A stretch of DNA of 36,409 nt from Cryptosporangium minutisporangium (GTDB lineage: Bacteria; Actinomycetota; Actinomycetes; Mycobacteriales; Cryptosporangiaceae), in the NCBI RefSeq assembly GCF_039536245.1, contig NZ_BAAAYN010000023.1, positions 458,194 to 494,602 on the forward strand. Direction: 5' to 3'. A model generated the notes under the pieces. The model was not told the DNA's origin, searched no databases, and saw only the letters and a program-made list of their open reading frames with translations. This document shows positions 12,187-25,091 of the stretch, piece by piece. A program made the position numbers and the translations under genes. Positions within the stretch are counted from its first letter, which is position 1, and each line of letters starts with the position of its first letter.

Positions 12187-13659
12187 TCAGTGCTGGTGGG
12201 TGGCGGCGGTCTTGGGAAGCGCGAGCATCACGGCTGCGGCCAGGAGGTAGGCGGCGACCTGCCAGGGCAGAACCTGCGCGAGGGCGTGCCCGAACACCAC
12301 GGCGGTGTCCCCCGCCGTCGAGCTGTCGGTGGGGACGAGGGCGTTGAAGAAGACGGTTCCCAAGACGGCGACGCCGACGGCTCCGCCGATCTGGTTGACG
12401 GTGGACAGCACCCCGCCTGCGGCGCCGGCGTGCCGATCGGGGACGCCGGCGAGGACGACGTTGACCAGGATCGGAGCGCCCAGCCCCAGCCCGAGTCCGC
12501 CGAGGAGCATGACCCCGGCCAGGGACCAGTAGCCCGGAGTGCCGCCGTCGCGGACGAGGAGCCACAGCAGGCCCTGCGATGCGGCCAGGATGAGGGACCC
12601 GGTGACGAGCAGGGCGCGGCCGGCCTTGCCCGCGAGGGCGACTCCGGCCCCGGAGGTGATCATCGACCCGAGCGCGTACGGCAGGAGCACCAGGCCGGTG
12701 TCCCAGGCCGAACGTCCGGTACCGGCTTGCAGGTAGATCGACAGGACCAGGAAGAACGCGGCCAGTGCCCCGAAGAACAGCACCGACGCCGCGAGGCCGG
12801 CGGTGAACGGGCGCACGGCCAGCAGCGCGGGCTCCAGGACCGGTTGCCCGCCGCGCGACGTGACGCGCCGCTCGTGAGCCACGAAGACGGCGAGCAGGAC
12901 CACCCCGGCCGCGAGGAGGGCCCACCCCCACCACGGCCAGCCCCAGTCCCGGCCCTGCACCAGCGGCAGCAGGACCAGCACGACCGCGGCTGCGGCGAGG
13001 ACCGCACCGGTGAAGTCCAGGCGTGCCCGCACCGGTGCGGTGGACTCCGGCAGCACCCGCGCTCCCAGCAGCAGGGCGACGGCGGCGACGGGGACGTTGA
13101 TCCAGAAGATCGTGCGCCAGCCCAGGCCCCACAGGTCGGCGTCGACGAGCGCGCCGCCGAGCAGTGGCCCGGCGACCGCGGCCAAGCCTTGCACGGCGCC
13201 GAACGCGCCGAACGCCTTGGCCATCGCGGCCGGCTCGAACGAGGACCGGATGATCCCGAACACCTGCGGGACCATGAACCCGCCCGCCAGGCCCTGCACC
13301 ACCCGGACCGCGATCAACGCCTCGGCCGACGGGGCGAGAGCGCACGCCGCGGACGCGACCGCGAAGCACGCCAGGGAGACGAGGAACACCTTGCGGCGGC
13401 CGTAGTCGTCCCCGATCCGTCCGCCGATGATCAGGCCCGATCCCAGGGCCAGGGTGTAGGCCGCGAGCGTCCACTGCAACTGCGCTTGCGTGGCGTGCAG
13501 ATCGGTGGCGATGTCGGGGGCGGCGACGGTGACGATCGTGACGTCGAGCAGGTCCATGAACGAGGCGAACAGCACGACGAGCAGCGCCAGCGACGCGCGT
13601 CGGCCCGCGACCGGCGCGGACTGATCAGACGAAGCGGGAGGTGAGGAAATCTGCGTCAT
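12187..13659 (-). CDS. MFS transporter, DHA2-type drug exporter
   Basis: This 490-residue exporter has about 14 membrane helices. Motifs: SFMDLLDVTIVTVAAPDIA in helix 1, loop 2-3 motif GGRIGDDYGRRKVF, VRVVQGLAGGFMVPQVFGII, and AVQGLAAVAGPLLGG in the motif C position. A characteristic WRTIFWINVPVAAVAL begins helix 6. Start ATG 13659 is chosen because upstream in-frame sequence is Arg-rich and runs across the operator palindrome. It is transcribed leftward with the UvrA-like fragment and is divergent from a WYL-domain regulator 62 bases away. MFS plus UvrA-like plus regulator is a known self-resistance type grouping for DNA-damaging or intercalating compounds. Here only the exporter is still whole. 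Confidence 0.92.
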   Translation of the reverse strand: MTQISSPPASSDQSAPVAGRRASLALLVVLFASFMDLLDVTIVTVAAPDIATDLHATQAQLQWTLAAYTLALGSGLIIGGRIGDDYGRRKVFLVSLACFAVASAACALAPSAEALIAVRVVQGLAGGFMVPQVFGIIRSSFEPAAMAKAFGAFGAVQGLAAVAGPLLGGALVDADLWGLGWRTIFWINVPVAAVALLLGARVLPESTAPVRARLDFTGAVLAAAAVVLVLLPLVQGRDWGWPWWGWALLAAGVVLLAVFVAHERRVTSRGGQPVLEPALLAVRPFTAGLAASVLFFGALAAFFLVLSIYLQAGTGRSAWDTGLVLLPYALGSMITSGAGVALAGKAGRALLVTGSLILAASQGLLWLLVRDGGTPGYWSLAGVMLLGGLGLGLGAPILVNVVLAGVPDRHAGAAGGVLSTVNQIGGAVGVAVLGTVFFNALVPTDSSTAGDTAVVFGHALAQVLPWQVAAYLLAAAVMLALPKTAATHQH

Positions 13660-13680
13660 GACCGCACCGTGACATCGATA

Positions 13681-13699
13681 GCGGCCACGGAATGGCCGC
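13681..13699. promoter_or_regulatory. Inverted repeat, likely operator between WYL regulator and MFS genes
   Basis: A perfect 7-bp inverted repeat, GCGGCCA (13681-13687) and TGGCCGC (13693-13699), is separated by five bases. It lies 21 bases upstream of the MFS start and between the divergent regulator and exporter genes, where a regulator controlling both would bind. The right arm overlaps an ATG at 13692 that could otherwise be read as the regulator start. Confidence 0.5.
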
Positions 13700-13721
13700 C
13701 ATTTCTGCGACGGTGGAACTC

Positions 13722-14735
13722 GTGGCCGACACCTCCGCACGGATCTTGCGTCTGCTGTCCCTACTCGAGGCGCGGGTGGAGTGGCCCGGAGCCGAGCTCG
13801 CCGAGCGGCTCGACGTGTCGGCTCGCACCTTGCGGCGCGACGTCGACACGCTGCGGGAGCTCGGCTACCCCGTCGACGCCGCCAAGGGCCCCGGCGGCGG
13901 GTACCGGCTCGGGCGTGGAGGAAAGCTCCCCCCGCTCGTCCTCGACGACGACCAGGCCATCGCCATCGCCTTGGCTCTGCAGACCGCGCCGGCGACCGTC
14001 ACCGGAATCGACGACGCCGTCACCCGCGCGCTGACCACGCTGCGTCAGGTCATGCCCACCCGGCTGCGAGCCGCGAGCGAAGCCTTCGAGGTGACCAGCC
14101 TGCGCAACTACTGGGAGTTCTCGGCCCCACCCATCGACATCGCCACCCTGCAGACCGTCGGCGCCGCGATCCGCACCAGCCGCGTCCTACGCTTCGACTA
14201 CCGCGACCCGACCGGCGCGATCCCCGCGCCCGGTCAGCCCGGCTTCCGCCCACCCCGAGAGGTCGAGCCCCACCACCTGGTCGTCTGGGCCGGCCGTTGG
14301 TACCTCATCGCCCGCGAGCACCGGCACCGGACCTGGCACACCTACCGCGTCGACCGGATCCACCACCGCTCCCCCGCCGGCGTGGCCTTCACGCCCCACC
14401 CCCTCACCGACGACGACCTCACCCGACTCGTCGTGCAGAATCCCGACCGCGGCGACACTCCCGGTCCCTGGCAGTGCGTCGGGTCAGCGACCCTCGAGCT
14501 ACCCGCCGGCGTCGTCGCCCGCTGGGCACCCGGCGGCTCCGTCGTTCAACCGCTCGACCCCCACCACAGTCGGCTCACCCTCTGCGGTTGGTCCTGGACC
14601 GGGGTCGCCGGCCTCTTCATCACGTTCGACACGGGCCTGAGCGATGTCGAGCCACCGGAACTCGTGGCCGCGTTGGGGCGGATCGGTCAGCGACTACGAG
14701 CCACAGCCTCCCAGCCGACCAACCTCTCCGGCTGA
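13722..14735 (+). CDS. WYL-domain transcriptional regulator (HTH_11–WYL)
   Basis: This 337-residue regulator has an N-terminal helix-turn-helix of the DeoR/HTH_11 type (TSARILRLLSLLEARVEWPGAELAERLDVSARTLRRDV, roughly residues 3-45) and a winged loop with the typical GGGYRLGRGGKLPPL. A WYL effector-binding domain begins near residue 140 and includes RVLRFDYRDPTG, EPHHLVVWAGRWYLIARE and TYRVDRI. WYL domains sense small ligands, sometimes nucleic-acid-derived. I choose GTG 13722, which gives the family-like opening VADTSARILRLLSLL. The ATG at 13692 lies inside an inverted repeat and adds residues without family similarity. It is divergent from the MFS/UvrA-like pair and most likely controls it. 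Confidence 0.9.
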   Translation: MADTSARILRLLSLLEARVEWPGAELAERLDVSARTLRRDVDTLRELGYPVDAAKGPGGGYRLGRGGKLPPLVLDDDQAIAIALALQTAPATVTGIDDAVTRALTTLRQVMPTRLRAASEAFEVTSLRNYWEFSAPPIDIATLQTVGAAIRTSRVLRFDYRDPTGAIPAPGQPGFRPPREVEPHHLVVWAGRWYLIAREHRHRTWHTYRVDRIHHRSPAGVAFTPHPLTDDDLTRLVVQNPDRGDTPGPWQCVGSATLELPAGVVARWAPGGSVVQPLDPHHSRLTLCGWSWTGVAGLFITFDTGLSDVEPPELVAALGRIGQRLRATASQPTNLSG

Positions 14736-14860
14736 ATCGCCTGGCCGAACCGACGCGCACTGAGGCCGTTTGCCCGCAGCCCCGACGCGGCCACTCAGGT
14801 CATCAGGATTTAACCCGCCGGGACCGCTTCCGGAACACATGGACACCACCCTCTACGCCA

Positions 14861-14882
14861 TTACCTATCGATTGACAGGTAA
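14861..14882. promoter_or_regulatory. Near-perfect 22-bp palindrome, candidate operator of the guanidine/urea operon
   Basis: Arms TTACCTATC (14861-14869) and GACAGGTAA (14874-14882) are complementary at eight of nine positions around a 4-base centre. The site lies 26 bases before the permease start, and a TTGACA hexamer (14872-14877) falls inside it. Its length and symmetry fit a TetR-family operator, and the only regulator in this operon is the TetR gene at 23268. Direct evidence of binding is lacking. Confidence 0.55.
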
Positions 14883-14908
14883 ACCTGGCCGCTCTGGAGG
14901 GTGGAGTC

Positions 14909-16492
14909 ATGAGCGCAGCCGAGTCCGCGCCCATCTTGGGGACGGAACACAGCACGGTCCGCGGTCCCATCGGCTACAAGCAGGAGTTGCACCGCGGGGT
15001 GGGGACCTTCGCTTCCTTCGCCGCCGGCTTCTCGTTCGTTTCGATCCTCACGACCGTGTTCCAGCTGTTCGGGCTGGGCTTCCTCCTCGGGGGCGCGTCG
15101 TTCTTCTGGACCTGGCCGGTGGTCTTCGCCGGCCAGCTCTGCGTCGCCTTCTGCTTCGCCGAGCTCGCCGGCCGCTGGCCGGTGTCGGGCGCGATCTTCC
15201 AGTGGTCCAGCCGCCTGGCCGGCACGACCTGGGGCTGGTTCACCGGCTGGATAATGGTCATCGGCCAGATCTTGACGGTGGCGGTGGCCGCGATCGCCAT
15301 GCAAGCCGTGCTGCCCGCCATCTGGTCGGGTTTCCAACTCGTGGGCGGCTCCGGCGCCGACCCGTCGATTCTGTCGCCGACCGGCGCGAAGAACGCCGTC
15401 ATCCTCGGCATCATCGTGCTCGTCTTCACCACCCTGGTGAACATCGTCGGCATCCGCCAGATGGCCGCGACGACGAGCGTCGGCGTCGCCATCGAGATCG
15501 TCGGCGTCGTCGTGCTCATCGGCGTGCTGTTCGCGCTCTCCGAGCGCGGCCCGTCCGTGGTGCTGCACAACACCGGCTGGGAGGGCACCGGCCACTACTT
15601 CTTCGCCTGGCTGGCGTCCTCGCTCATGGCCGCATACGTGATGGTGGGCTTCGACTCCGCCGGGGAGCTCGCCGAGGAGACCTACGCCCCTCGCAAGACG
15701 ACGCCCAAGACGATCATCCGCGCCCTGGTCATCTCGGGTATCGGCGGCGCCCTGCTCATCCTGGGTGCGCTGATGGCGGCACCGAGCCTGACCGACGGCA
15801 ACCTGTCGACGTTCGGCCTCTCGTGGGTCATCACCGAGCGCCTCGGCGACGTACTGGGCCGGCTGATGCTGTGCTGCGTCGCGGTCGCGGTCTTCGCCTG
15901 CACGCTCGCGGTCCAGACGTCCGGCGCGCGGATGATCTACTCGATGTCCCGGGAGCGCGCGTTCCCCTTCTCCTCCGCGCTCGGGAGAGTCTCGCCGCGC
16001 ACCGGCACGCCGGTCGTCACCTCGATCGTGGTCGGTGTCGGCGCCGCGCTGGCCCTCGCGGTCAACATCAACTCGACGACGATCTTCACGGCCCTGTCCA
16101 GCATCTGCATCGCCATGCTCTACATCGCCTACCTGGGCGTCACGCTGCCGCTGCTCGTCGTGCGGATCAAGCACCGCGCGACCGACCACTTCCCGGCCGG
16201 GCACGACGAGGACGGCGCGCCGCTGTTCTCGATGGGCCGATTCGGCATCGCCGTCAACGTCCTCGCCGTCGTCTATGGCGCGATCATGGTGGTCAACCTG
16301 ATGTGGCCCCGGCCGGAGATCTACGACCTCTCGACGAACGGGAACTGGGCGCTCCAGTACAGCGCGCTGTTGCTGGTCGGCCTGACCGTAGCCATCGGCG
16401 CCGGCTACTTCGGCTACCGGCGACTGCACACCCGCATCGACCTGGTCCACGTTCCGCACACGCACGTCGCCACCGAGGGGGCGGACGCGTGA
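14909..16492 (+). CDS. APC-family amino acid/guanidine-type permease
   Basis: This 527-residue secondary transporter of the APC superfamily has 12 or more hydrophobic helices. Features: FASFAAGFSFVSILTTVFQLF in the first helix with the broken-helix Gly, FCFAELAGRWPVSGAIFQW with the family E-x-x-x-x-x-P element, and GFDSAGELAEETYAPRKTTPKTI in the conserved helix 6-7 loop. ATG 14909 follows GGAGGG closely. It heads the operon, and its stop overlaps the GTG of the next gene (GTGA, 16489-16492). Permeases of this group are commonly found with urea/guanidine carboxylase genes. Uptake of guanidine, urea or a related nitrogen compound is therefore likely from context, not from the sequence itself. 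Confidence 0.9.
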   Translation: MSAAESAPILGTEHSTVRGPIGYKQELHRGVGTFASFAAGFSFVSILTTVFQLFGLGFLLGGASFFWTWPVVFAGQLCVAFCFAELAGRWPVSGAIFQWSSRLAGTTWGWFTGWIMVIGQILTVAVAAIAMQAVLPAIWSGFQLVGGSGADPSILSPTGAKNAVILGIIVLVFTTLVNIVGIRQMAATTSVGVAIEIVGVVVLIGVLFALSERGPSVVLHNTGWEGTGHYFFAWLASSLMAAYVMVGFDSAGELAEETYAPRKTTPKTIIRALVISGIGGALLILGALMAAPSLTDGNLSTFGLSWVITERLGDVLGRLMLCCVAVAVFACTLAVQTSGARMIYSMSRERAFPFSSALGRVSPRTGTPVVTSIVVGVGAALALAVNINSTTIFTALSSICIAMLYIAYLGVTLPLLVVRIKHRATDHFPAGHDEDGAPLFSMGRFGIAVNVLAVVYGAIMVVNLMWPRPEIYDLSTNGNWALQYSALLLVGLTVAIGAGYFGYRRLHTRIDLVHVPHTHVATEGADA

Positions 16493-17334
16493 CGACCCGC
16501 GGCGAGCACCTGACCGACAGCGTCCGCAACGCCCGCGCCGACGCCCGCGCGCAAACCGGTCTGACCAGCGAGTGGATGCCCTACCTGCCGGCGTCCGGCA
16601 GCCCGTTCGCGCCGGCCGGCGTGGACCCGGCCGACCTGGTGTGGGCCGAGACCGTGGCGCCGGGCGGCTACACCCACAAGGTCCTCGCCAGGGGAACCCG
16701 CCTGCGCCTCGACGACCCGACCGGCGACGCGTGCGCGCACCTCGTCGTCCACAACGCGCTCGAACCCGTCGAACGGCTCAACGTGGCCGACACCCTGAAG
16801 ATCCCGTGGCAGGCCTACCTCGGCGCCGGACACCCGTTGCTGTCGGGCGAGGGACGGGTGCTCGCCACGATCGTGGCCGATACCTCGGCGCACCACGACG
16901 CGTTCTGCGGCACGACCACCGAGGCGTGGAACGACCGCAAGTACGGCGACGCCCGCCCGGAGGGACCGTCCCCGGCCGGGCGGAGCCTGTTCGTCAAGGC
17001 CGCGGCCAAGCACGGCCTGAGCCGGCGGGACCTGCCGCCGAGCGTCTCGTTCTTCCAGGGCGTCCGGGTGGGGGCCGACGGCAGCTTTACGTGGCTCGGC
17101 TCGGCCGGGCCCGGCACCTCGGTCGAGCTGGTGGCCGAGCTGCCGCTGCTGGTGCTGCTCGCGAACGTCGCCCACCCGCTCGACCCCCGCCCGGAGTACG
17201 TCGTCGGTCCGCTACGCGTGCACGCGTGGCGCGGCCCGGCCACCGGCCCGGGCGACGAGCGGTTCACCGCCACGCCCGAGCGGAACCGCGCGTACCTCAA
17301 CTCGATCGACTACGCGGAGGCACGAGGCCTGTGA
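16489..17334 (+). CDS. cgdA: Carboxyguanidine deiminase subunit / urea amidolyase-associated protein UAAP1 (DUF1989)
   Basis: This 281-residue DUF1989 protein, formerly 'urea amidolyase-associated protein 1', belongs to a pair shown in other bacteria to form carboxyguanidine deiminase. That enzyme turns carboxyguanidine into allophanate plus ammonia. Family stretches: AETVAPGGYTHKVLARGTRLRLDD, DACAHLVVHNALEPVERLNVADT, QAYLGAGHPLLSGEGRVLATIVADTS, CGTTTEAWNDRKYGD and ANVAHPLDPRPEY. It has Cys in FCGTT but lacks the NCP...NPC cysteine pair of its partner, so the two subunits are probably not equivalent. The GTG start at 16489 overlaps the permease stop, and its stop overlaps the next GTG (17331-17334). 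The subunit letter is assigned by order and length only. Confidence 0.85.
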   Translation: MTTRGEHLTDSVRNARADARAQTGLTSEWMPYLPASGSPFAPAGVDPADLVWAETVAPGGYTHKVLARGTRLRLDDPTGDACAHLVVHNALEPVERLNVADTLKIPWQAYLGAGHPLLSGEGRVLATIVADTSAHHDAFCGTTTEAWNDRKYGDARPEGPSPAGRSLFVKAAAKHGLSRRDLPPSVSFFQGVRVGADGSFTWLGSAGPGTSVELVAELPLLVLLANVAHPLDPRPEYVVGPLRVHAWRGPATGPGDERFTATPERNRAYLNSIDYAEARGL

Positions 17335-17996
17335 CCGTGGAAACCGCCGCACCGGATTCCCCCTTCGACTGGAGTGCACCGCTCGTCCCGGGCACCGTCG
17401 TGCTCGACGACCGGATCGCCCCGAACGCGCCCTGGTCGGGCGTCGTGACGCGGGGGCAGGTGCTGACGATCGTCGACGTCGGCGGGAATCAGTCCGCCGA
17501 CTGCCTGATCTACAACGCGCACGACTTCGCCGAGCGCTACAGCGTCCCGGACACCGTCGCCTGGCAGGGCAACGCCTACGTGCGCACCGGCACCGTGCTG
17601 CGCAGCAACGAAGGCCGTCCACTGATGACCGTCGTGGCCAACGAGATCGACCGCCAGGACACGATCGGCGGCGCCTGCGGCAAGGAGTCCAACACACTGC
17701 GGTACGGCCACCACGTCGGATACCAGCACGGCTGCCGGGAGAACTTCCTCGCCGAGGGGTCCCGGCGCGGTCTCGACGCCCGCGACCTGGTGTCGAACCT
17801 CAACTGGTTCATGAACGTTCCGGTCGAGGCGGACGGCGCCCTCGGCATCGTCGACGGCATGTCCGCGCCCGGCAAGCGCGTCGCCGTGCGCGCCGAGATG
17901 GACGTGCTCGTGCTCGTCTCCAACTGCCCGCAGATGAACAACCCGTGCAACGACTTCGATCCGACGCCGCTGCGGATGATCGTGGTGGAGCCGTGA
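17331..17996 (+). CDS. cgdB: Carboxyguanidine deiminase subunit / urea amidolyase-associated protein UAAP2 (DUF1989)
   Basis: This 221-residue DUF1989 protein is a paralogue and presumed partner of the preceding gene product. Family blocks are very clear: PWSGVVTRGQVLTIVDVGGNQSADCL, VLRSNEGRPLMTVVANE, DTIGGACGKESNTLRYGHH, HGCRENF, VSNLNWFMNVPVEADGALGI and LVSNCPQMNNPCNDFDPTPLRM. The conserved Cys, His and Glu residues look like metal or catalytic ligands, which suggests that this subunit carries the deiminase active site. That is inference from conservation. Both junctions are GTGA overlaps (17331-17334 and 17993-17996), so it is translated in step with its partner and the carboxylase. Confidence 0.87.
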   Translation: MTVETAAPDSPFDWSAPLVPGTVVLDDRIAPNAPWSGVVTRGQVLTIVDVGGNQSADCLIYNAHDFAERYSVPDTVAWQGNAYVRTGTVLRSNEGRPLMTVVANEIDRQDTIGGACGKESNTLRYGHHVGYQHGCRENFLAEGSRRGLDARDLVSNLNWFMNVPVEADGALGIVDGMSAPGKRVAVRAEMDVLVLVSNCPQMNNPCNDFDPTPLRMIVVEP

Positions 17997-20900
17997 ACAC
18001 CGTCCTGGTCGCCAACCGCGGCGAGATCGCCCGCCGGATCATTCGGACGGCCCGCGAACTCGGCATGCGGTCCGTGGCGGTCTTCTCCGACGCCGATCGC
18101 GCGGCGCCGCACGTCCGGGAGGCCGACGCCGCGGTCCACCTCGGCCCGGCACCGGCGCGCGAGTCCTACCTGCGCCACGACGTGATCCTCGAGGCTGCCC
18201 GGAAGACGAACGCCGACATCATCCACCCGGGATACGGATTCCTCTCGGAGAACGTCGACTTCGCGCACGCGGTGGAGGCGGCCGGGATCCGGTTCGCCGG
18301 CCCGGCCCCGGACCAGATCACCGCGTTCGGCACGAAGCACACGGCGCGGGCACTGGCCGAGGCCGCCGGCGTCCCGCTGCTCGCGGGTACCGGCCTGCTT
18401 TCCTCCGCCGACGAGGCGGCAGCCGCCGCGGAGGCGATCGGGCTCCCGGTCATGCTGAAGGCCACCGGCGGAGGCGGTGGCATCGGCATGCAGGCGTGCG
18501 CCACAGTGGATGACGTCCGGGACGCATACGCACGGGTCGCCGCGCTCGCCGCGGCCAACTTCGGCTCCGCCGGCGTCTTCCTCGAGCGACTCGTCCGGCC
18601 GGCGCGCCACGTCGAGGTCCAGGTCTTCGGCGACGGCCACGGGCGCATCGCGATCCTCGGGGACCGGGACTGCTCGCTCCAACGGCGCAACCAGAAGGTC
18701 ATCGAAGAGGCGCCCGCACCTGCCCTGCCCGCGCACGTCCGCGCGTCACTGCACACCGCGGCACGCGACCTGTTGGCCACCGTCGACTACCGCAGCGCGG
18801 GCACCGTCGAGTTCGTCTACGACCCGGTTCGCGAGGAAGCCTCGTTCCTCGAGGTCAACACCCGGCTGCAGGTCGAGCACCCGGTCACCGAGGAGGTCTT
18901 CGGCGTCGACCTAGTCGCGTTGATGCTTCTCCTGGCCCGCGACGGGGTGGTGGACGAGGACGTTTTCACGCGGCCCTGGACGCCCCGCGGCTTCGCCGTC
19001 GAGGCACGGGTCTACGCCGAGGATCCCGCGAAGGACTCGCTGCCGTCCTCGGGCCTGGTCACCCGGGCGGTGTTCCCTGCCCTGCCCGGCGTGCGGGTGG
19101 ACGGCTACGTCGAGACCGGCCTGGACGTGTCGCCGTTCTACGACCCCATGCTCGCCAAGGTCATTGCGGTCGGCGACACCCGCGATGACGCCCTCGACCT
19201 GCTCGGCGAGGCGCTGGACGCCACCCGCGTCGACGGGATCGTCACCAACCTGGGGTTGCTGCGCGCGCTCACCGACGAGGTCGACTTGCGCGCCGCCATC
19301 CACTCGACCAGCACGCTGACGCACACCACCGATCCCGACCCGCGGATCGACGTGCTGGCGCCCGGCCCCCTCACCACCGTCCAGGATCTCCCCGGACGCC
19401 TGGGGTACTGGCACGTCGGCGTCCCGCCGAGCGGTCCGTTCGACCCGGTCTCGTTCGCCGAGGCGAACCTCGCGGTCGGCAACCCCGCGGAGGCGCCCGC
19501 GCTCGAGGTCACCGCGGGAGGCCTCACGCTCCGGTTCTCCACGCCGTCGGTCGTCAGCGTCACCGGTTCGGACCTTCCGGTCACCCTCGACGGCGCGGAG
19601 GTCGAGCTCTGGACCGCGATCGACGTGCCGGCGGGCGGCACCCTCACTCTGGGCACCGCGAACGGCCCCGGCCTACGAAGCTACGTCGCCGTCCGCGGCG
19701 GCATCGACGTCCCCACCTACCTCGGCAGCGCCTCGACGTTCACGCTCGGCGCCTTCGGCGGCCACGGGGGCCGGGCGCTGCTCGCCGGCGACGTCCTGCG
19801 GCCAGGTTCGCCGGACTCCGCCGACAACGCCGCACTGGGCCGGGTACCCGGACCGACGCCGGCCGACCGACGCCCGTTCCTCACGTCCACCTGGCAGATC
19901 GGCGTCACCGAGGGTCCGCACGCGGCACCGGAGTTCTTCACCCGCGACGACATCGACACGCTGTACGCCACGGCCTACGAGGTGCACCACAACTCCGCTC
20001 GCACCGGCATCCGGCTGATCGGTCCGAAACCGACCTGGGCCAGGCCGGACGGCGGCGAGGCGGGCCTGCACCCGTCCAACATCCACGACACCCCGTACGC
20101 GATCGGCGCGCTGGACTTCACCGGGGACACGCCGATCATCCTGGGCCCGGACGGGCCCTCGCTCGGCGGTTTCGTCTGCCCCGCGGTCGTGGCCAGCGGC
20201 GAACTCTGGAAACTCGGACAGTTGCGGCCCGGCGACAGCGTCCGGTTCGTGCCCGTCAAGGAGGTCGACGCCGCCACGCTCGTCGACGCGCGCAGCGCAC
20301 CGGCCTTGCTCTCGTCCGGCGGGGACGGCGACGACGGAGTTCTGGCGCGGATCGGGCCCGGCGACGACCGGCCGTCGGTGACCTACCGACGCGACGGCGA
20401 CGACAACGTGCTCGTCGAGTACGGGCCGATGGCGCTCGATCTGGCCCTGCGTATGCGGGTGCACGCGCTGCAGGAGACGCTCGCCCGGCACGCGCCGGAC
20501 GGCATCGTCGACGTCACCCCCGGCATCCGCTCGCTGCAGATCCACACCGACGCGCGCAAGCTCAAGGCCCGGGACATCGCAGGCCTGCTGCAGGACCTCG
20601 AGGCGGAGGTGCCCCCGACGCACGAGCTGGTCGTGCCCTCCCGCACAGTCCGGCTCCCGTTGAGCTGGGATGATCCCGCCACGCGGCTGGCCATCGAGCG
20701 GTACGTGGCCGGCGTTCGCGACGACGCTCCCTGGTGCCCGTGGAACATCGAGTTCATCCGCCGGATCAATGGCCTGGACACCGCCGACGACGTCTACCGC
20801 ACGGTCTTCGACGCCAGCTACCTCGTGCTCGGACTCGGCGACGTCTACCTGGGCGCGCCCGTCGCCACGCCGCTGGATCCGCGGCACCGCCTGGTCACCA

Positions 20901-21580
20901 CCAAGTACAACCCGGCCCGGACCTGGACGGCCGAGAACTCCGTCGGCATCGGCGGCGCCTACCTCTGCATCTACGGCATGGAGGGCCCCGGCGGCTACCA
21001 GTTCGTCGGCCGCACCGTGCAGATCTGGAACCGGTTCCGCCGAGGAGGGCTCTTCGGCGGGAACCCGTGGGCGCTGCGATTCTTCGACCGCATCGAGTGG
21101 TACCCCGTCACCGCGGACGAACTGCTGGAGTTGCGCGCCGAGACCGACGCCGGCCGGGGGAACTTCGCGACGGCCGACGGCACGTTCTCCCTCGCCGACT
21201 ACCAGGCGTTCCTGACTGAGAACGCGGACTCGATCGCGGAGTTCCGGACCCGCCAGTCGGCCGCCTTCGAGGCCGAGAAGGAACGCTGGCGCGCCTCGGG
21301 CGAGTTCGACCGGCGCGACGATCCCGACCCCGTCGCGGCCGATGCCGTCACCGTGCCGACGGACGCGACCGCTGTCATCGCGTCCTTCCCGGCGACGGTG
21401 TGGCAGTTGGCCGCCTCTCCGGGCGATAGCGTCGCGGCCGGCGACACGATCATGTCCTTGGAGGCGATGAAGATGGAGATGACCGTGACCGCACCAATCA
21501 CCGGCACCCTCGTCGAGCTGTACGTCCGCTCCGGGGAGCAGGTGGCGCCCGGCCAGATCGTCGCGGCGGTGCGGTCGTGA
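17993..21580 (+). CDS. Biotin-dependent guanidine/urea carboxylase
   Basis: This 1195-residue multidomain enzyme carboxylates guanidine (or urea) using ATP, bicarbonate and biotin. Domain order: biotin carboxylase, about residues 1-450 (VLVANRGEIARRI, IHPGYGFLSEN, KATGGGGGIGMQ, EVNTRLQVEHPVTEE); a carboxyltransferase built of KipA-like (VQDLPGRLGYWHVGVPPSGPFD, about 460-760) and KipI-like modules (VEYGPMALDLALRMRVHALQ, about 800-890); a urea-carboxylase-specific region (RRINGLDTADDVYRTVFDA, KYNPARTWTAENSVGIGG); and a C-terminal biotin carrier domain with the biotinyl Lys1160 in EAMKMEM. It has no fused allophanate hydrolase; that is the next gene. Asp708 in GALDFTGD appears to align with an Asn used by urea carboxylases, which together with CgdA/CgdB favours guanidine as substrate. 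GTG 17993 overlaps the previous stop. Confidence 0.92.
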   Translation: MNTVLVANRGEIARRIIRTARELGMRSVAVFSDADRAAPHVREADAAVHLGPAPARESYLRHDVILEAARKTNADIIHPGYGFLSENVDFAHAVEAAGIRFAGPAPDQITAFGTKHTARALAEAAGVPLLAGTGLLSSADEAAAAAEAIGLPVMLKATGGGGGIGMQACATVDDVRDAYARVAALAAANFGSAGVFLERLVRPARHVEVQVFGDGHGRIAILGDRDCSLQRRNQKVIEEAPAPALPAHVRASLHTAARDLLATVDYRSAGTVEFVYDPVREEASFLEVNTRLQVEHPVTEEVFGVDLVALMLLLARDGVVDEDVFTRPWTPRGFAVEARVYAEDPAKDSLPSSGLVTRAVFPALPGVRVDGYVETGLDVSPFYDPMLAKVIAVGDTRDDALDLLGEALDATRVDGIVTNLGLLRALTDEVDLRAAIHSTSTLTHTTDPDPRIDVLAPGPLTTVQDLPGRLGYWHVGVPPSGPFDPVSFAEANLAVGNPAEAPALEVTAGGLTLRFSTPSVVSVTGSDLPVTLDGAEVELWTAIDVPAGGTLTLGTANGPGLRSYVAVRGGIDVPTYLGSASTFTLGAFGGHGGRALLAGDVLRPGSPDSADNAALGRVPGPTPADRRPFLTSTWQIGVTEGPHAAPEFFTRDDIDTLYATAYEVHHNSARTGIRLIGPKPTWARPDGGEAGLHPSNIHDTPYAIGALDFTGDTPIILGPDGPSLGGFVCPAVVASGELWKLGQLRPGDSVRFVPVKEVDAATLVDARSAPALLSSGGDGDDGVLARIGPGDDRPSVTYRRDGDDNVLVEYGPMALDLALRMRVHALQETLARHAPDGIVDVTPGIRSLQIHTDARKLKARDIAGLLQDLEAEVPPTHELVVPSRTVRLPLSWDDPATRLAIERYVAGVRDDAPWCPWNIEFIRRINGLDTADDVYRTVFDASYLVLGLGDVYLGAPVATPLDPRHRLVTTKYNPARTWTAENSVGIGGAYLCIYGMEGPGGYQFVGRTVQIWNRFRRGGLFGGNPWALRFFDRIEWYPVTADELLELRAETDAGRGNFATADGTFSLADYQAFLTENADSIAEFRTRQSAAFEAEKERWRASGEFDRRDDPDPVAADAVTVPTDATAVIASFPATVWQLAASPGDSVAAGDTIMSLEAMKMEMTVTAPITGTLVELYVRSGEQVAPGQIVAAVRS

Positions 21581-23238
21581 ACGGCACCGTCGCCGAGCGG
21601 GTCGCGGCCGCGTTCGACCGGATCGAGGCCGCCGACCGGCCCGAGGTGTGGATCTCGGTACGCGACCGCGACGAGGTGCTCCGCGAAGCCGCCTCGGTCG
21701 ACCCCGAACTCCCGCTGGCCGGTCTGGTGTTCGCGGTCAAGGACAACATCGACGTCGCCGGCCTGCCGACCACCGCCGCGTCCGCGTCCTACGCCTACTG
21801 GCCGGCCGCCGATGCGACCGCGGTCCGGCGGCTCCGCGACGCCGGCGCCCTCGTCGTCGGCAAGACGAACCTCGACCAGTTCGCCACCGGTCTGGTCGGC
21901 ACCCGCAGCCCTTACGGCGCGGTACGCAACGCGTGGGACCCGGCGCGGATCTCCGGCGGATCGTCGTCCGGCTCCGGGGTCGCCGTGGCGCTCGGCCTGG
22001 TCGACTTCGCCCTCGGCACCGACACCGCCGGCTCCGGACGCGTCCCCGCAGCCCTAAACGGCATCGTCGGGATCAAGCCCACCAAGGGACTCGTCCCGGT
22101 CACCGGCGTGGTTCCCGCCTGTTACAGCCTCGACTGCGTCACGGTCTTCGCGCGCGACCTCGCGCTGGGCCGTGCCGTGGCCGAGCTGATGGAGGGAGTC
22201 GACCCCGCCGACCCGCTGTCGCGCGTCGCGCAGCCTACGGCCGCGGCACCGGCCCGCCCGCGCCTCGCCGTACCCGCGGCCGAGCACCTCGACGGGCTCG
22301 CGCCAGGGTGGAAGGACGCTTTCGCGGCGGCCGTCCGGCGCTTCGCGAGCGTCGGCGCCGAGATCGTCGAGGTCGACATCGCACCGCTGCTCGAAGCGGC
22401 GGCTCTGCTCTACGGTGGCGCGTTCGTCGCCGAGCGCTACGCCGCGGTGGGCGCGCACCTCGAGAAACATCCGGAGTTGATCGGGACCGACCTGGACCCG
22501 ATCGTCGCGGGCATCGTTCTCGGCGGAAAGGACAAGACGGCTGCCGACTGGGCCGACGACACCGCACGGCTGGCCGCGCTCGGCAGTGCCGGCCGGGCCG
22601 CGCTCGCGGGCTGCGTCGGCCTTCTCACGCCGACGACGACCGGGCACCCGACACTGGCCGACGTCGCCGCGGATCCGATCGGCGCCAACGCGCGCATGGG
22701 TCGCTACACGAACTACGCCAATCTCCTGGACATGGCGTCACTGGCCGTCCCTGCGGGCTTCGTCGACGGGTTGCCGTTCGGCGTGATGCTCACCGGTCCC
22801 GCGTTCAGCGACCGCGCGTTGGCCGAGCTCGCCGGCCGGTTCGCCAACCCCGGCATCGACGTTTTCGTCGTCGGCGCCCACCTCGCCGGTCAGCCCCTCA
22901 ACGTCGAGCTGGTCACCGCCGGCGGGACCTTCGTCGCGTCGACCAACACCGCCCCGGCGTACGCGCTGCACGCGCTGGCCACCGAACCGCCCAAGCCCGG
23001 CCTGGTTCGGGTCGGCAGCGGCGGGAGCAGCATCAAGGGTGAGCTGTGGCGGCTGCCAGCGAGCGGATTCGGAGCGTTCGTCGCGGCGGTTCCGGCGCCG
23101 CTGGCGATCGGCACGGTCGTCCTCGCCGACGGATCCTCGGTCAGCGGCTTCGTCGCCGAACCCGCGGCGCTGCAGAATGCGCCCGACATCAGCCACCTCG
23201 GCGGGTGGCGCGACTACCTCGCGACCGCCACCCAGTGA
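21577..23238 (+). CDS. atzF: Allophanate hydrolase
   Basis: This 553-residue amidase-signature enzyme hydrolyses allophanate to ammonia and CO2, the last step of the operon's pathway. The Lys-cisSer-Ser triad is visible as K55 (VFAVKDNID), S129 (ISGGSSSGSG) and S153 (GTDTAGSGR), with the 24-residue Ser-Ser spacing seen in characterised amidases. After about residue 430 comes the C-terminal domain specific to allophanate hydrolases (FVVGAHLAGQPLN, LVRVGSGGSSIKGELWRLP, then a DGSSVSGFVAEPAAL stretch). Its presence separates this gene from general amidases and from Glu-tRNA amidotransferase subunit A. The GTG at 21577 overlaps the carboxylase stop (GTGA). The length is slightly below the roughly 600 residues usual for the family, with no sign of damage. 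Confidence 0.93.
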   Translation: MNGTVAERVAAAFDRIEAADRPEVWISVRDRDEVLREAASVDPELPLAGLVFAVKDNIDVAGLPTTAASASYAYWPAADATAVRRLRDAGALVVGKTNLDQFATGLVGTRSPYGAVRNAWDPARISGGSSSGSGVAVALGLVDFALGTDTAGSGRVPAALNGIVGIKPTKGLVPVTGVVPACYSLDCVTVFARDLALGRAVAELMEGVDPADPLSRVAQPTAAAPARPRLAVPAAEHLDGLAPGWKDAFAAAVRRFASVGAEIVEVDIAPLLEAAALLYGGAFVAERYAAVGAHLEKHPELIGTDLDPIVAGIVLGGKDKTAADWADDTARLAALGSAGRAALAGCVGLLTPTTTGHPTLADVAADPIGANARMGRYTNYANLLDMASLAVPAGFVDGLPFGVMLTGPAFSDRALAELAGRFANPGIDVFVVGAHLAGQPLNVELVTAGGTFVASTNTAPAYALHALATEPPKPGLVRVGSGGSSIKGELWRLPASGFGAFVAAVPAPLAIGTVVLADGSSVSGFVAEPAALQNAPDISHLGGWRDYLATATQ

Positions 23239-23267
23239 CGGCGGCGCGCCGTGGAAGGATGACGCCC

Positions 23268-23963
23268 ATGGCGCAGCACGCCCGACCGGGACGGCCGAGG
23301 CACACGTCGGCGTCGACCGCCTCGGCCGATGCCTCCCCGGCCGGCACGGCGCGCGAGCAGATCCTCGACGCCGCTGCGGCGCTCTTCGCCGAGCACGGCT
23401 TCGCCGCCACCACGACGCGCATGATCGCCGAACGGGTCGGCGTCCGCCAGGCCTCGCTCTACTACCACTTCGCCGGCAAGGACGAGTTGCTCATCGAGCT
23501 GCTCACCACGTCGGTGCGGCCGAGCCTGGAAGCCGTCCGGGGCATCGAGTCGCTGGTCCCGGACACTGCGAGCGCGGCCGCGGCGCTCTACCTTCTGGCC
23601 AGCGTCGACGTCGAGACCCTCGGCCGCACGCCGCACAATATCGGGACGCTGTACCTGCTCCCCGAGGTGCAGCAGGAGCGATACGACTCCTTCCGCACCG
23701 AACGCCAGGAGCTGCAGGAAATCTACGGTCGCCTGGGGTTCCGGGCAGCGCGGGCGGAGGTCCGTGCCGCCATCGCCGAACCGCGCCTCGGCGAGCTCCT
23801 CATCCAAGTCGCCGAGGTGGTCATCCAGATCCGCCGCACGCGCAGTCCGGACGCCGCCGATGCCGACGCCGTCGCCTCCTCCTGCCTGCGGCTGTGCGGC
23901 TGCTCCGAAGCGGCGATCGACGAGGCGCGGTCGGACGCCCGCTCGCTGCTCGTCGGAGCGTGA
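23268..23963 (+). CDS. TetR-family transcriptional regulator
   Basis: This 231-residue regulator has a classical TetR helix-turn-helix near the N-terminus: REQILDAAAALFAEHGFAATTTRMIAERVGVRQASLYYHFAGKDELL, about residues 30-77. A helical ligand-binding domain of about 150 residues with two adjacent Cys (CLRLCGC) follows. The first 25 residues form a Ser/Ala/Arg-rich tail. I choose ATG 23268 because GGAAGGA (23253-23259) is well spaced for it; the ATG at 23259 overlaps that site. It lies 29 bases after the allophanate hydrolase stop with no terminator visible, so it is probably cotranscribed. It is the natural candidate to bind the palindrome at 14861-14882 and repress the operon until the substrate or a product appears. 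Confidence 0.9.
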   Translation: MAQHARPGRPRHTSASTASADASPAGTAREQILDAAAALFAEHGFAATTTRMIAERVGVRQASLYYHFAGKDELLIELLTTSVRPSLEAVRGIESLVPDTASAAAALYLLASVDVETLGRTPHNIGTLYLLPEVQQERYDSFRTERQELQEIYGRLGFRAARAEVRAAIAEPRLGELLIQVAEVVIQIRRTRSPDAADADAVASSCLRLCGCSEAAIDEARSDARSLLVGA

Positions 23964-24071
23964 GCCGCGAGCGTCGTCAGCCGGTCGCTGTCCTGGGCCG
24001 AGTCGGCCACATACGGCGACACCAGAGGGCCCGCCCACCATCTCGTTGAACCGGGTAAGTAGAAATGCGGG

Positions 24072-25091
24072 GTGACCACTGATTCCCTCCGGAGCGCCGT
24101 GGCTGGCGTCGCGGTGACCCTCGCGATCGTGCTCACCGGGTTCCTGCTCGCGCCGTTCATCTCCGGCATCGAGCCGGTCGGCGTCACCCCGGGCGGTCAC
24201 GGCGGGCCGATCGATCTCGCGGTCAAGGACGGCCAGCAGATCCGTACCGCCGACACCACGATCACCGTGCCGGAGAACGTCACCGACGCCACTGTCACCG
24301 AGTTCCGGGGCGGCTTCCTCGGCTTGCAGTTCGCCACACTCACCTGGATCAGGCCGGACGCGTCGACCGAGGTGGTCGCCGACGAGGTGCGGACCTACGT
24401 CGTCGACAACACCGGCACCCGAGTCGCGTGGCGTGCCGGCCCGTCGATCGGCCGGGCAGAGCTGCGGAACGGCCGCCTCGTCAGAGAGCGGAGACCGATC
24501 AACGAGATCCCGGAAGACGCCCAGCCGTATCTCCTCACCGGCGCCGAGTTGGTACTGCGCCGACCCGGGACGGGGACGTTCGGACAGGAAGGCTACGTCG
24601 CGCCGAGCTTCGGATTCGTCCCGTGGGACGGTGGCACCTCGATCTGGCCGACCGACCTGGCCGCCGTATTCGGTTCCGTGCTGAACGACACATACGTGCT
24701 GGAGCAGATGCGAACGACCGGGGATCAGTCGGCCCGGACCGGTTGCCTGACCTACTCGGTAGCCCCGGCGTCGGCGCCGACGCAGCAGCGGTGCGACTTG
24801 AACCTGCGTCTGGACCTGCAACGCTGGTCGCTCTCCCCGAGCGGCCGGTACTTCGGTGACGCCGCCGGGCCGACCGACGCGCCCTACGGTGTGCTGTTCA
24901 CGGTGGGCGAGAAACTCACGAGCGCCGTCTGGCGGCGCGGCCCCGTGCCGGACCGGGCTCCGCTCTGGGACGACGACACAATGGTGTTCACGTCCAACGA
25001 GCAGCTCTACCTGTGGAGACCGGGCCACGATCCGGAAAAATTGGACGGGTTCGACCAGGACACGCTGATTCCTCGACCGTTCGAACGGTGA
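24072..25091 (+). CDS. Membrane-anchored extracytoplasmic protein of unknown function
   Basis: A 339-residue protein that I do not recognise. The N-terminus is an uncleaved signal/anchor (AVAGVAVTLAIVLTGFLLAPFI), followed by a soluble region of about 300 residues with many Asp, Thr and Gly. Visible stretches are DTTITVPENVTDATVTEFRG, SFGFVPWDGGTSIWPTDLAAVFG, and a Cys pair in RTGCLTYS and QRCDLN that could form a disulfide. The C-terminal half has a repeat-like pattern of W/Y plus D/G (LSPSGRYFGDAAG, then LWDDDTMVFTSNEQLYLWRPG) reminiscent of beta-propeller blades, but this is weak. The GTG at 24072 lacks a ribosome site; TAGAAAT just upstream could be the -10 of a leaderless transcript. It stands alone. 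Confidence 0.78.
   Translation: MTTDSLRSAVAGVAVTLAIVLTGFLLAPFISGIEPVGVTPGGHGGPIDLAVKDGQQIRTADTTITVPENVTDATVTEFRGGFLGLQFATLTWIRPDASTEVVADEVRTYVVDNTGTRVAWRAGPSIGRAELRNGRLVRERRPINEIPEDAQPYLLTGAELVLRRPGTGTFGQEGYVAPSFGFVPWDGGTSIWPTDLAAVFGSVLNDTYVLEQMRTTGDQSARTGCLTYSVAPASAPTQQRCDLNLRLDLQRWSLSPSGRYFGDAAGPTDAPYGVLFTVGEKLTSAVWRRGPVPDRAPLWDDDTMVFTSNEQLYLWRPGHDPEKLDGFDQDTLIPRPFER

Follow-up and report, generated by a model that had tools for sequence, protein, structure and literature searches.

Gene content of the operon

The window analysed here is the whole stretch of 36,409 nucleotides from Cryptosporangium minutisporangium (contig NZ_BAAAYN010000023.1, positions 458,194 to 494,602 of the forward strand). 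It contains an operon of six plus-strand genes (14909–23963) encoding, in this order, an APC permease, the DUF1989 proteins UAAP1 and UAAP2, an unfused biotin-dependent carboxylase, an allophanate hydrolase and a TetR-type repressor (AmtR); a palindrome lies directly upstream (Table 1). As judged from their sequences, the six genes very probably form one transcription unit that assimilates nitrogen from guanidine and is repressed by AmtR. Neighbouring genes share a 4-nt overlap at every junction. The same gene block recurs in relatives, from which it follows that the operon is not a chance arrangement. The limits and the single direction given for these genes in a first-pass annotation of the DNA were borne out by the open reading frame coordinates, Pfam and NCBIfam.

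Table 1. Features of the operon and its upstream region (coordinates of the window).
Feature	Coordinates	Strand	Basis or remark
22-bp inverted repeat TTACCTATCGATTGACAGGTAA, proposed AmtR operator	14861..14882	.	26 bp before permease start
APC-superfamily permease, proposed guanidine importer	14909..16492	+	PF13520; TIGR03428 632 bits, below cut-off
UAAP1, DUF1989, proposed carboxyguanidine deiminase subunit	16489..17334	+	PF09347; TIGR03425 292 versus 206 bits
UAAP2, DUF1989, proposed carboxyguanidine deiminase subunit	17331..17996	+	PF09347; TIGR03424 316 versus 285 bits
Probable biotin-dependent guanidine carboxylase (annotated urea carboxylase), D708 and D950	17993..21580	+	TIGR02712 1754 versus 1304 bits
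Allophanate hydrolase, amidase and AH_C	21577..23238	+	PF01425, PF21986; NF006043 and TIGR02713 above cut-off; 4gyr E 2e-153
TetR-type repressor, AmtR family	23235..23963	+	TetR_N; AmtR profile and Foldseek matches

The carboxylase was found by Pfam to comprise biotin carboxylase, CT_A_B, CT_C_D and biotinyl domains and no amidase domain; its biotin carboxylase, carboxyltransferase and biotinyl parts are full length and, together with the TIGR02712 match, agree with the domain set of a guanidine carboxylase. The hydrolase is encoded apart and has the two domains of an AtzF-type allophanate hydrolase (amidase and AH_C, above the curated cut-offs), so that the first-pass description of a carboxylase without a fused hydrolase stands. 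The two adjacent PF09347 proteins, one of the UAAP1 kind and one of the UAAP2 kind, have the composition of a CgdAB pair, CgdA and CgdB being defined as clades of a PF09347 tree in PMC11410670.

In an alignment to trimethylamine N-oxide demethylase (9q59), C116, C135 and C199 of UAAP2 occupied the zinc cysteine positions of DUF1989, and the spacings of 16 and 64 in the 9q59 row agree with the zinc ligands C263, C279 and C343 given for that enzyme in PMC12560246. UAAP1, aligned with UAAP2, has T, G and V at the three positions. By alignment and spacing, zinc cysteines are thus present in at least one subunit of the pair, and since UAAP2 keeps all three and UAAP1 none, UAAP2 is probably the metal-binding subunit.

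Substrate of the carboxylase

D708 of the carboxylase, in the motif GALDFTGD, aligned with N1330 in GAINFTGD of the Kluyveromyces lactis urea amidolyase (phmmer alignment to 5i8i), and D950, the Asp of LGLGD, was placed at K. lactis position 1584 by counting along the 5i8i alignment row. Asp at both positions is the combination by which guanidine carboxylases are called in PMC11410670, and the Asp/Asn rule is given likewise in PMC12186494. The first-pass annotation had assigned Asp708 to the specificity position and had proposed such an alignment as a check, the outcome of which was favourable.

The residue was then compared with gene content at 15 fetched loci of relatives with a full-length carboxylase and in a wider set of 49 loci (window included). 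A DUF1989 pair was scored as a tblastn match for each of UAAP1 and UAAP2; as the two cross-match, gene places were also inspected. Among the 15 loci the pair was present at 12, all with Asp (12/12), and absent from three, all with Asn (3/3); one genome (G104) carries both a D-type carboxylase with the pair and an N-type carboxylase without it. The loci of the wider set that have the pair comprised 38 with Asp, one with Asn and two with Ile (38 of the 41 readable loci were thus of the Asp type) and two that were unreadable. Those without the pair had Asn in 5/6 cases and Asp in one, which lies on a contig starting 145 nt upstream of the gene. Guanidine rather than urea, as proposed at first pass, is well supported as the substrate because of D708, D950 and the co-occurrence of Asp with the DUF1989 pair. 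Outside Actinomycetota, a guanidine-I riboswitch was found at 7/10 D-type loci scanned and at neither of two N-type loci without the pair.

The chemistry, transport, operator binding and repression proposed here are modelled on characterised relatives. The permease would take up guanidine, the carboxylase would convert guanidine, ATP and bicarbonate to carboxyguanidine, the UAAP1/UAAP2 pair would deiminate carboxyguanidine to allophanate and ammonia, and the hydrolase would split allophanate into ammonia and CO2, giving a total of three ammonia per guanidine. AmtR, the product of the last gene, would sit on the palindrome 26 bp upstream of the first start codon and shut off the entire unit, its own gene included. 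The window shares its enzyme set and specificity residue with the guanidine carboxylase/carboxyguanidine deiminase/allophanate hydrolase pathway, for which Schneider 2020 and Sinn 2021 are reportedly the sources. APC permeases are also present at nitrifier guanidine loci, where they are the predicted guanidine importers (PMC11410670).

It is very improbable that the carboxylase uses urea in a urea amidolyase pathway with the DUF1989 proteins as accessories, as the annotation has it. The NCBIfam names for these families are still urea-based, and the homologous mycobacterial genes have been treated as serving urea use (PMC4222082, PMC3662644). Against this stand the Asp in place of Asn at K. lactis 1330, the absence of the DUF1989 pair from all three Asn-type loci among the 15, the indifference of Mycobacterium smegmatis AmtR binding to urea (PMC4222082) and a urease alpha-subunit gene in the genome of the window, owing to which urea use need not rest on the operon.

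A substituted guanidine or another amidine (methylguanidine, guanylurea), handled by the same chemistry, is an improbable substrate. The importer does vary: in one relative (G104) a sodium:solute symporter of the SSF family (PF00474; L202:2309-3826), with two operator sites of its own upstream, stands in the permease's place, so that homology does not settle which compound is imported. The operon of the window, however, is without the extra genes of the methylguanidine type (dioxygenase, lyase; PMC12508155), and its six genes are the bare guanidine pathway.

Several observations weigh against guanidine assimilation under AmtR control. The permease scored 632.2 bits with TIGR03428 ('permease, urea carboxylase system'), below the cut-off of 740.45 bits. 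The related mycobacterial operon is placed under nitrogen control by GlnR, AmtR having a secondary role (PMC4222082). A locus from a Hyphomicrobium metagenome-assembled genome (L104) has Asn despite the pair and despite guanidine-I and guanidine-II riboswitches, and therefore Asn may not strictly exclude guanidine; L194 and L195 have Ile as the specificity residue, with two DUF1989 genes alongside. Asp at the K. lactis 1330 position is incompletely diagnostic. Finally, the window gave 0 Rfam riboswitch matches, hence no guanidine aptamer upstream of the operon; model guanidine operons have guanidine-I/-II riboswitches and ABC importers (PMC12186494, PMC12508155), whereas AmtR and an APC permease are found here.

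Guanidine riboswitches were also absent from 14 loci scanned as whole operons (L055-L065, L069, L235, L237), from eight others (L183-L188, L193, L194), in which RNase P was the sole match, and from L117. The same scan recovered guanidine-I in 8/14 loci of a further set and therefore works.

Identity of the regulator

No NCBIfam model was above its cut-off for the TetR protein, the true start of which may be a later Met codon than 23235. A profile was made from 23 homologues (that of the window included), all from loci with a UAAP pair. Its top match was AmtR of M. smegmatis (5e57, E 1e-79), and AmtR of Corynebacterium glutamicum was matched with E 4e-59 (5dxz). The best Foldseek match of the AlphaFold model (mean pLDDT 84.8) was likewise M. 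smegmatis AmtR, with a TM-score to 5e57_B of 0.89 by target length and 0.74 by query length. C. glutamicum AmtR (5dxz, 5mqq) is of the same family and fold (Foldseek E 5e-9) but, unlike that of the window, is a central nitrogen regulator. Kinship with AmtR was thus found in both sequence and fold; by profile and predicted structure, the TetR protein of the operon is AmtR. Neither this identity nor the palindrome at 14861–14882 had been part of the first-pass annotation, in which the actinobacterial version with its own TetR was called less studied. That view did not hold: in 2013 the cluster had already appeared in print as an AmtR operon, labelled as urea-related (PMC4222082). Given the profile match and this paper, the idea of an unstudied regulator was dropped.

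In family f8 (201 genomes; thresholds of E 1e-30 for AmtR and E 1e-40 for UAAP2) AmtR was found in 142 genomes and UAAP2 in 132, both in 129, AmtR alone in 13, UAAP2 alone in three and neither in 56 (Fisher p 3e-33, kinship ignored). UAAP2 lay within 10 kb for 27/30 of the best 30 AmtR matches. The pathway is patchier at the level of the phylum, UAAP2 (E 1e-45) being present in 14/396 evenly drawn genomes. C. glutamicum was among the control genomes; assuming the same 14 controls, a DUF1989 match was found in Bacillus subtilis and Caulobacter vibrioides only.

Operator palindrome

At 25 loci, seed sites were taken where the core was matched no more than 350 nt ahead of a permease, UAAP1 or TetR gene. 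Since the seeds were selected in this way, the full length of each locus was searched with a matrix that drew on other families only. The top site lay in such an upstream region in 25/25 loci (15.0–40.5 bits), although in L191 and L193 it was a neighbour of the seed in the same gap and not the seed itself. The site at 14861–14882 scored 27.1 bits and was the best of its 17-kb stretch, the runner-up scoring 7.4. Considering the four best sites per locus, the best outside the upstream regions reached 13.8 bits, except for one of 30.6 bits in L069; the best site of 18 control loci without AmtR reached 13.2 bits. Three named records outside the matrix gave 29.5, 38.9 and 29.5 bits, each just upstream of the permease or UAAP1. 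As a pattern with up to three mismatches, the palindrome was matched once in the window and 0 times in 100 shuffles.

A second site in L236 (36.0 bits) precedes a divergent permease. In the f18 genomes with UAAP2 the permease gene lies ~7 kb from the other operon genes and is preceded by a site of its own (4/4). In L186 the site is present without an adjacent regulator, AmtR being encoded on another contig of the same genome.

The AmtR operator of Streptomyces avermitilis and relatives is given as TAtCTGTCa-n2-cGACAGATAT, 22 bp (Chen 2013, cited in PMC8864220). Its length and TGTC-N4-GACA core are common to the sites found here, including, by sequence, that upstream of the operon; the window site differs from it in having TATC in the left half and in its flanks. 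The palindrome at 14861–14882 is likely the AmtR operator. Over the whole 9.23-Mb genome the operator pattern gave four rows, two of which are the window palindrome on both strands and two are others at three mismatches; the reversed-pattern control gave 0 across the same 9.23 Mb. By this count a broad nitrogen regulon of the Corynebacterium type was not found for the AmtR of the window.

Two operator-like sites elsewhere were recorded separately: L069:7579 (30.6 bits), inside a G104 carboxylase gene and close to what looks like an insert there, and L197:4753 (34.2 bits) in G068, distant from the operon and between genes of no clear link, with an ABC substrate-binding protein, judged by eye, nearby.

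Comparison with published AmtR operons

PMC4222082 describes the cluster as a conserved operon found together with amtR in ten genomes of actinobacteria. As in the window, Kineococcus radiotolerans Krad_0901-0906 and M. smegmatis msmeg_2184-2189 encode a permease, two unknown reading frames, a 'urea carboxylase', an amidase and AmtR, and the K. radiotolerans junctions overlap as GTGA/ATGA. In M. smegmatis, AmtR was shown to bind DNA upstream of the permease gene msmeg_2184, and this binding was unaffected by 0.5–5 mM urea or amino acids (PMC4222082). Unlike the reading given here, the cluster was published as urea-related, its enzyme functions being termed 'highly speculative'; 'guanid' occurs 0 times in the main text of that paper, in which no AmtR site sequence was found under 'motif' or 'palindrom'. 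The operon therefore is of an already known kind, and what is new is the joining of two literatures, that on AmtR and that on guanidine. The gene set, the specificity residues, their co-occurrence with the DUF1989 pair, the AmtR kinship and the conserved palindrome were established in the present analysis.

Among the named records examined that carry the whole operon, the closest was a Streptomyces chartreusis plasmid (L235), which has the same gene order with TetR last and is 85% identical in UAAP2 and 81% in the carboxylase.

Guanidine elsewhere in the genome

A guanidine-III riboswitch was found in the genome of the window (L054:4904-4972, equivalent to G000:C29:80903-80971; 41.1 bits against a gathering score of 36), 15 nt upstream of an SMR gene that is SugE-like (113 bits, below the cut-off of 126). 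With this riboswitch before a SugE-like exporter, the cell probably encounters guanidine. By sequence it appears to handle guanidine in two ways, through an exporter under an RNA sensor and through a catabolic operon without one.

Possible effector of AmtR

Conservation in the ligand domain was examined in 92 AmtRs from pathway genomes and records, comprising a first set of 23, 24 further proteins from among the 30 best f8 matches, five more and 40 lower-ranked f8 proteins, the last included because the best matches favour the profile; the sample takes in 72/129 of the f8 genomes with both genes. D125, Y140, E144, Y164 and E194 were all kept in 91/92, the exception (L264) having E144D. In genus g288 (genomes of 2.0–3.0 Mb, no UAAP2 match) E144, Y164 and E194 were lost in 8/8 and D125 was replaced by E or Q. 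C. glutamicum AmtR has I, F and M at the E144, Y164 and E194 positions; as it shares the losses, g288 is probably Corynebacterium.

The contrast is blurred by other proteins. Of five further AmtR-only genomes, three keep all five residues, one has E144V and one Y140C; among five second AmtR copies, two keep all five, two have E144A and one has Y140F and Y164H. Moreover, g288 is a single clade, and the loss is therefore possibly one evolutionary event. The pattern fits a cation-binding site kept along with the pathway, although the residues could instead be structural.

The missing effector of AmtR may thus be guanidine, which is the new and testable point of this analysis. In its full form, the proposal is that AmtR serves in these operons as a protein receptor for guanidine or carboxyguanidine and that Corynebacterium AmtR is a derived form that has lost the ligand site and been rewired to PII. 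We regard it as possible but rather doubtful. The site for the guanidinium cation would consist of D125, E144 and E194, and the inertness of urea as an effector in 2013 would follow from the operon having had no part in urea use.

We give an even chance to the alternative that AmtR senses no guanidine or other pathway compound and is released by PII/GlnK signalling or out-competed by GlnR. For C. glutamicum AmtR, release by adenylylated GlnK has been proposed and no small-molecule effector identified (PMC8864220, PMC4617892), and in M. smegmatis the nitrogen control of the operon requires GlnR, AmtR binding being insensitive to the compounds tried (PMC4222082). General signalling of this kind sits less easily with the five residues kept in all but one of the pathway AmtRs and with the loss of three of them throughout g288.

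In the library searched, and as judged by title, no paper linking AmtR with guanidine was found. A 2025 review (PMC12186494) gives guanidine riboswitches as the only known guanidine receptors besides transporters and enzymes, and states that regulatory proteins are to be expected. The AmtR repressors, for which structures but no small-molecule effector are known, accompany the guanidine pathway in several families of actinobacteria; if the guanidine assignment is true, a group of 'urea' genes in the nitrogen regulation of these bacteria would be relabelled.

Variant loci and neighbouring sequence

At the f8 loci L018-L023, L183, L184, L186, L188, L191, L193 and L196, the match to the D-type carboxylase next to the DUF1989 pair covers the carboxyltransferase part only, as Pfam also showed for L184 and L191; the biotin carboxylase and biotinyl parts have to be encoded somewhere else. 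L024-L031 encode another protein limited to the carboxyltransferase part, in which the specificity residue is Met (AYPVGGIMLSGDTPV); it lies beside a DUF1989 match and an allophanate-hydrolase-like amidase, perhaps as a related pathway for a different substrate. L194 and L195 have carboxyltransferase-only genes of the Ile type and a permease of only 28–29% identity, and are without AmtR or the operator.

No tRNA was found within the window. A scan of 14700–24100 gave 0 sigma-70 promoters (0.2 expected) and one terminator-like site (2.1 expected). Upstream of the operon (12190–14735) lie a divergent MFS transporter and a WYL-domain regulator, which are probably an unrelated pair.

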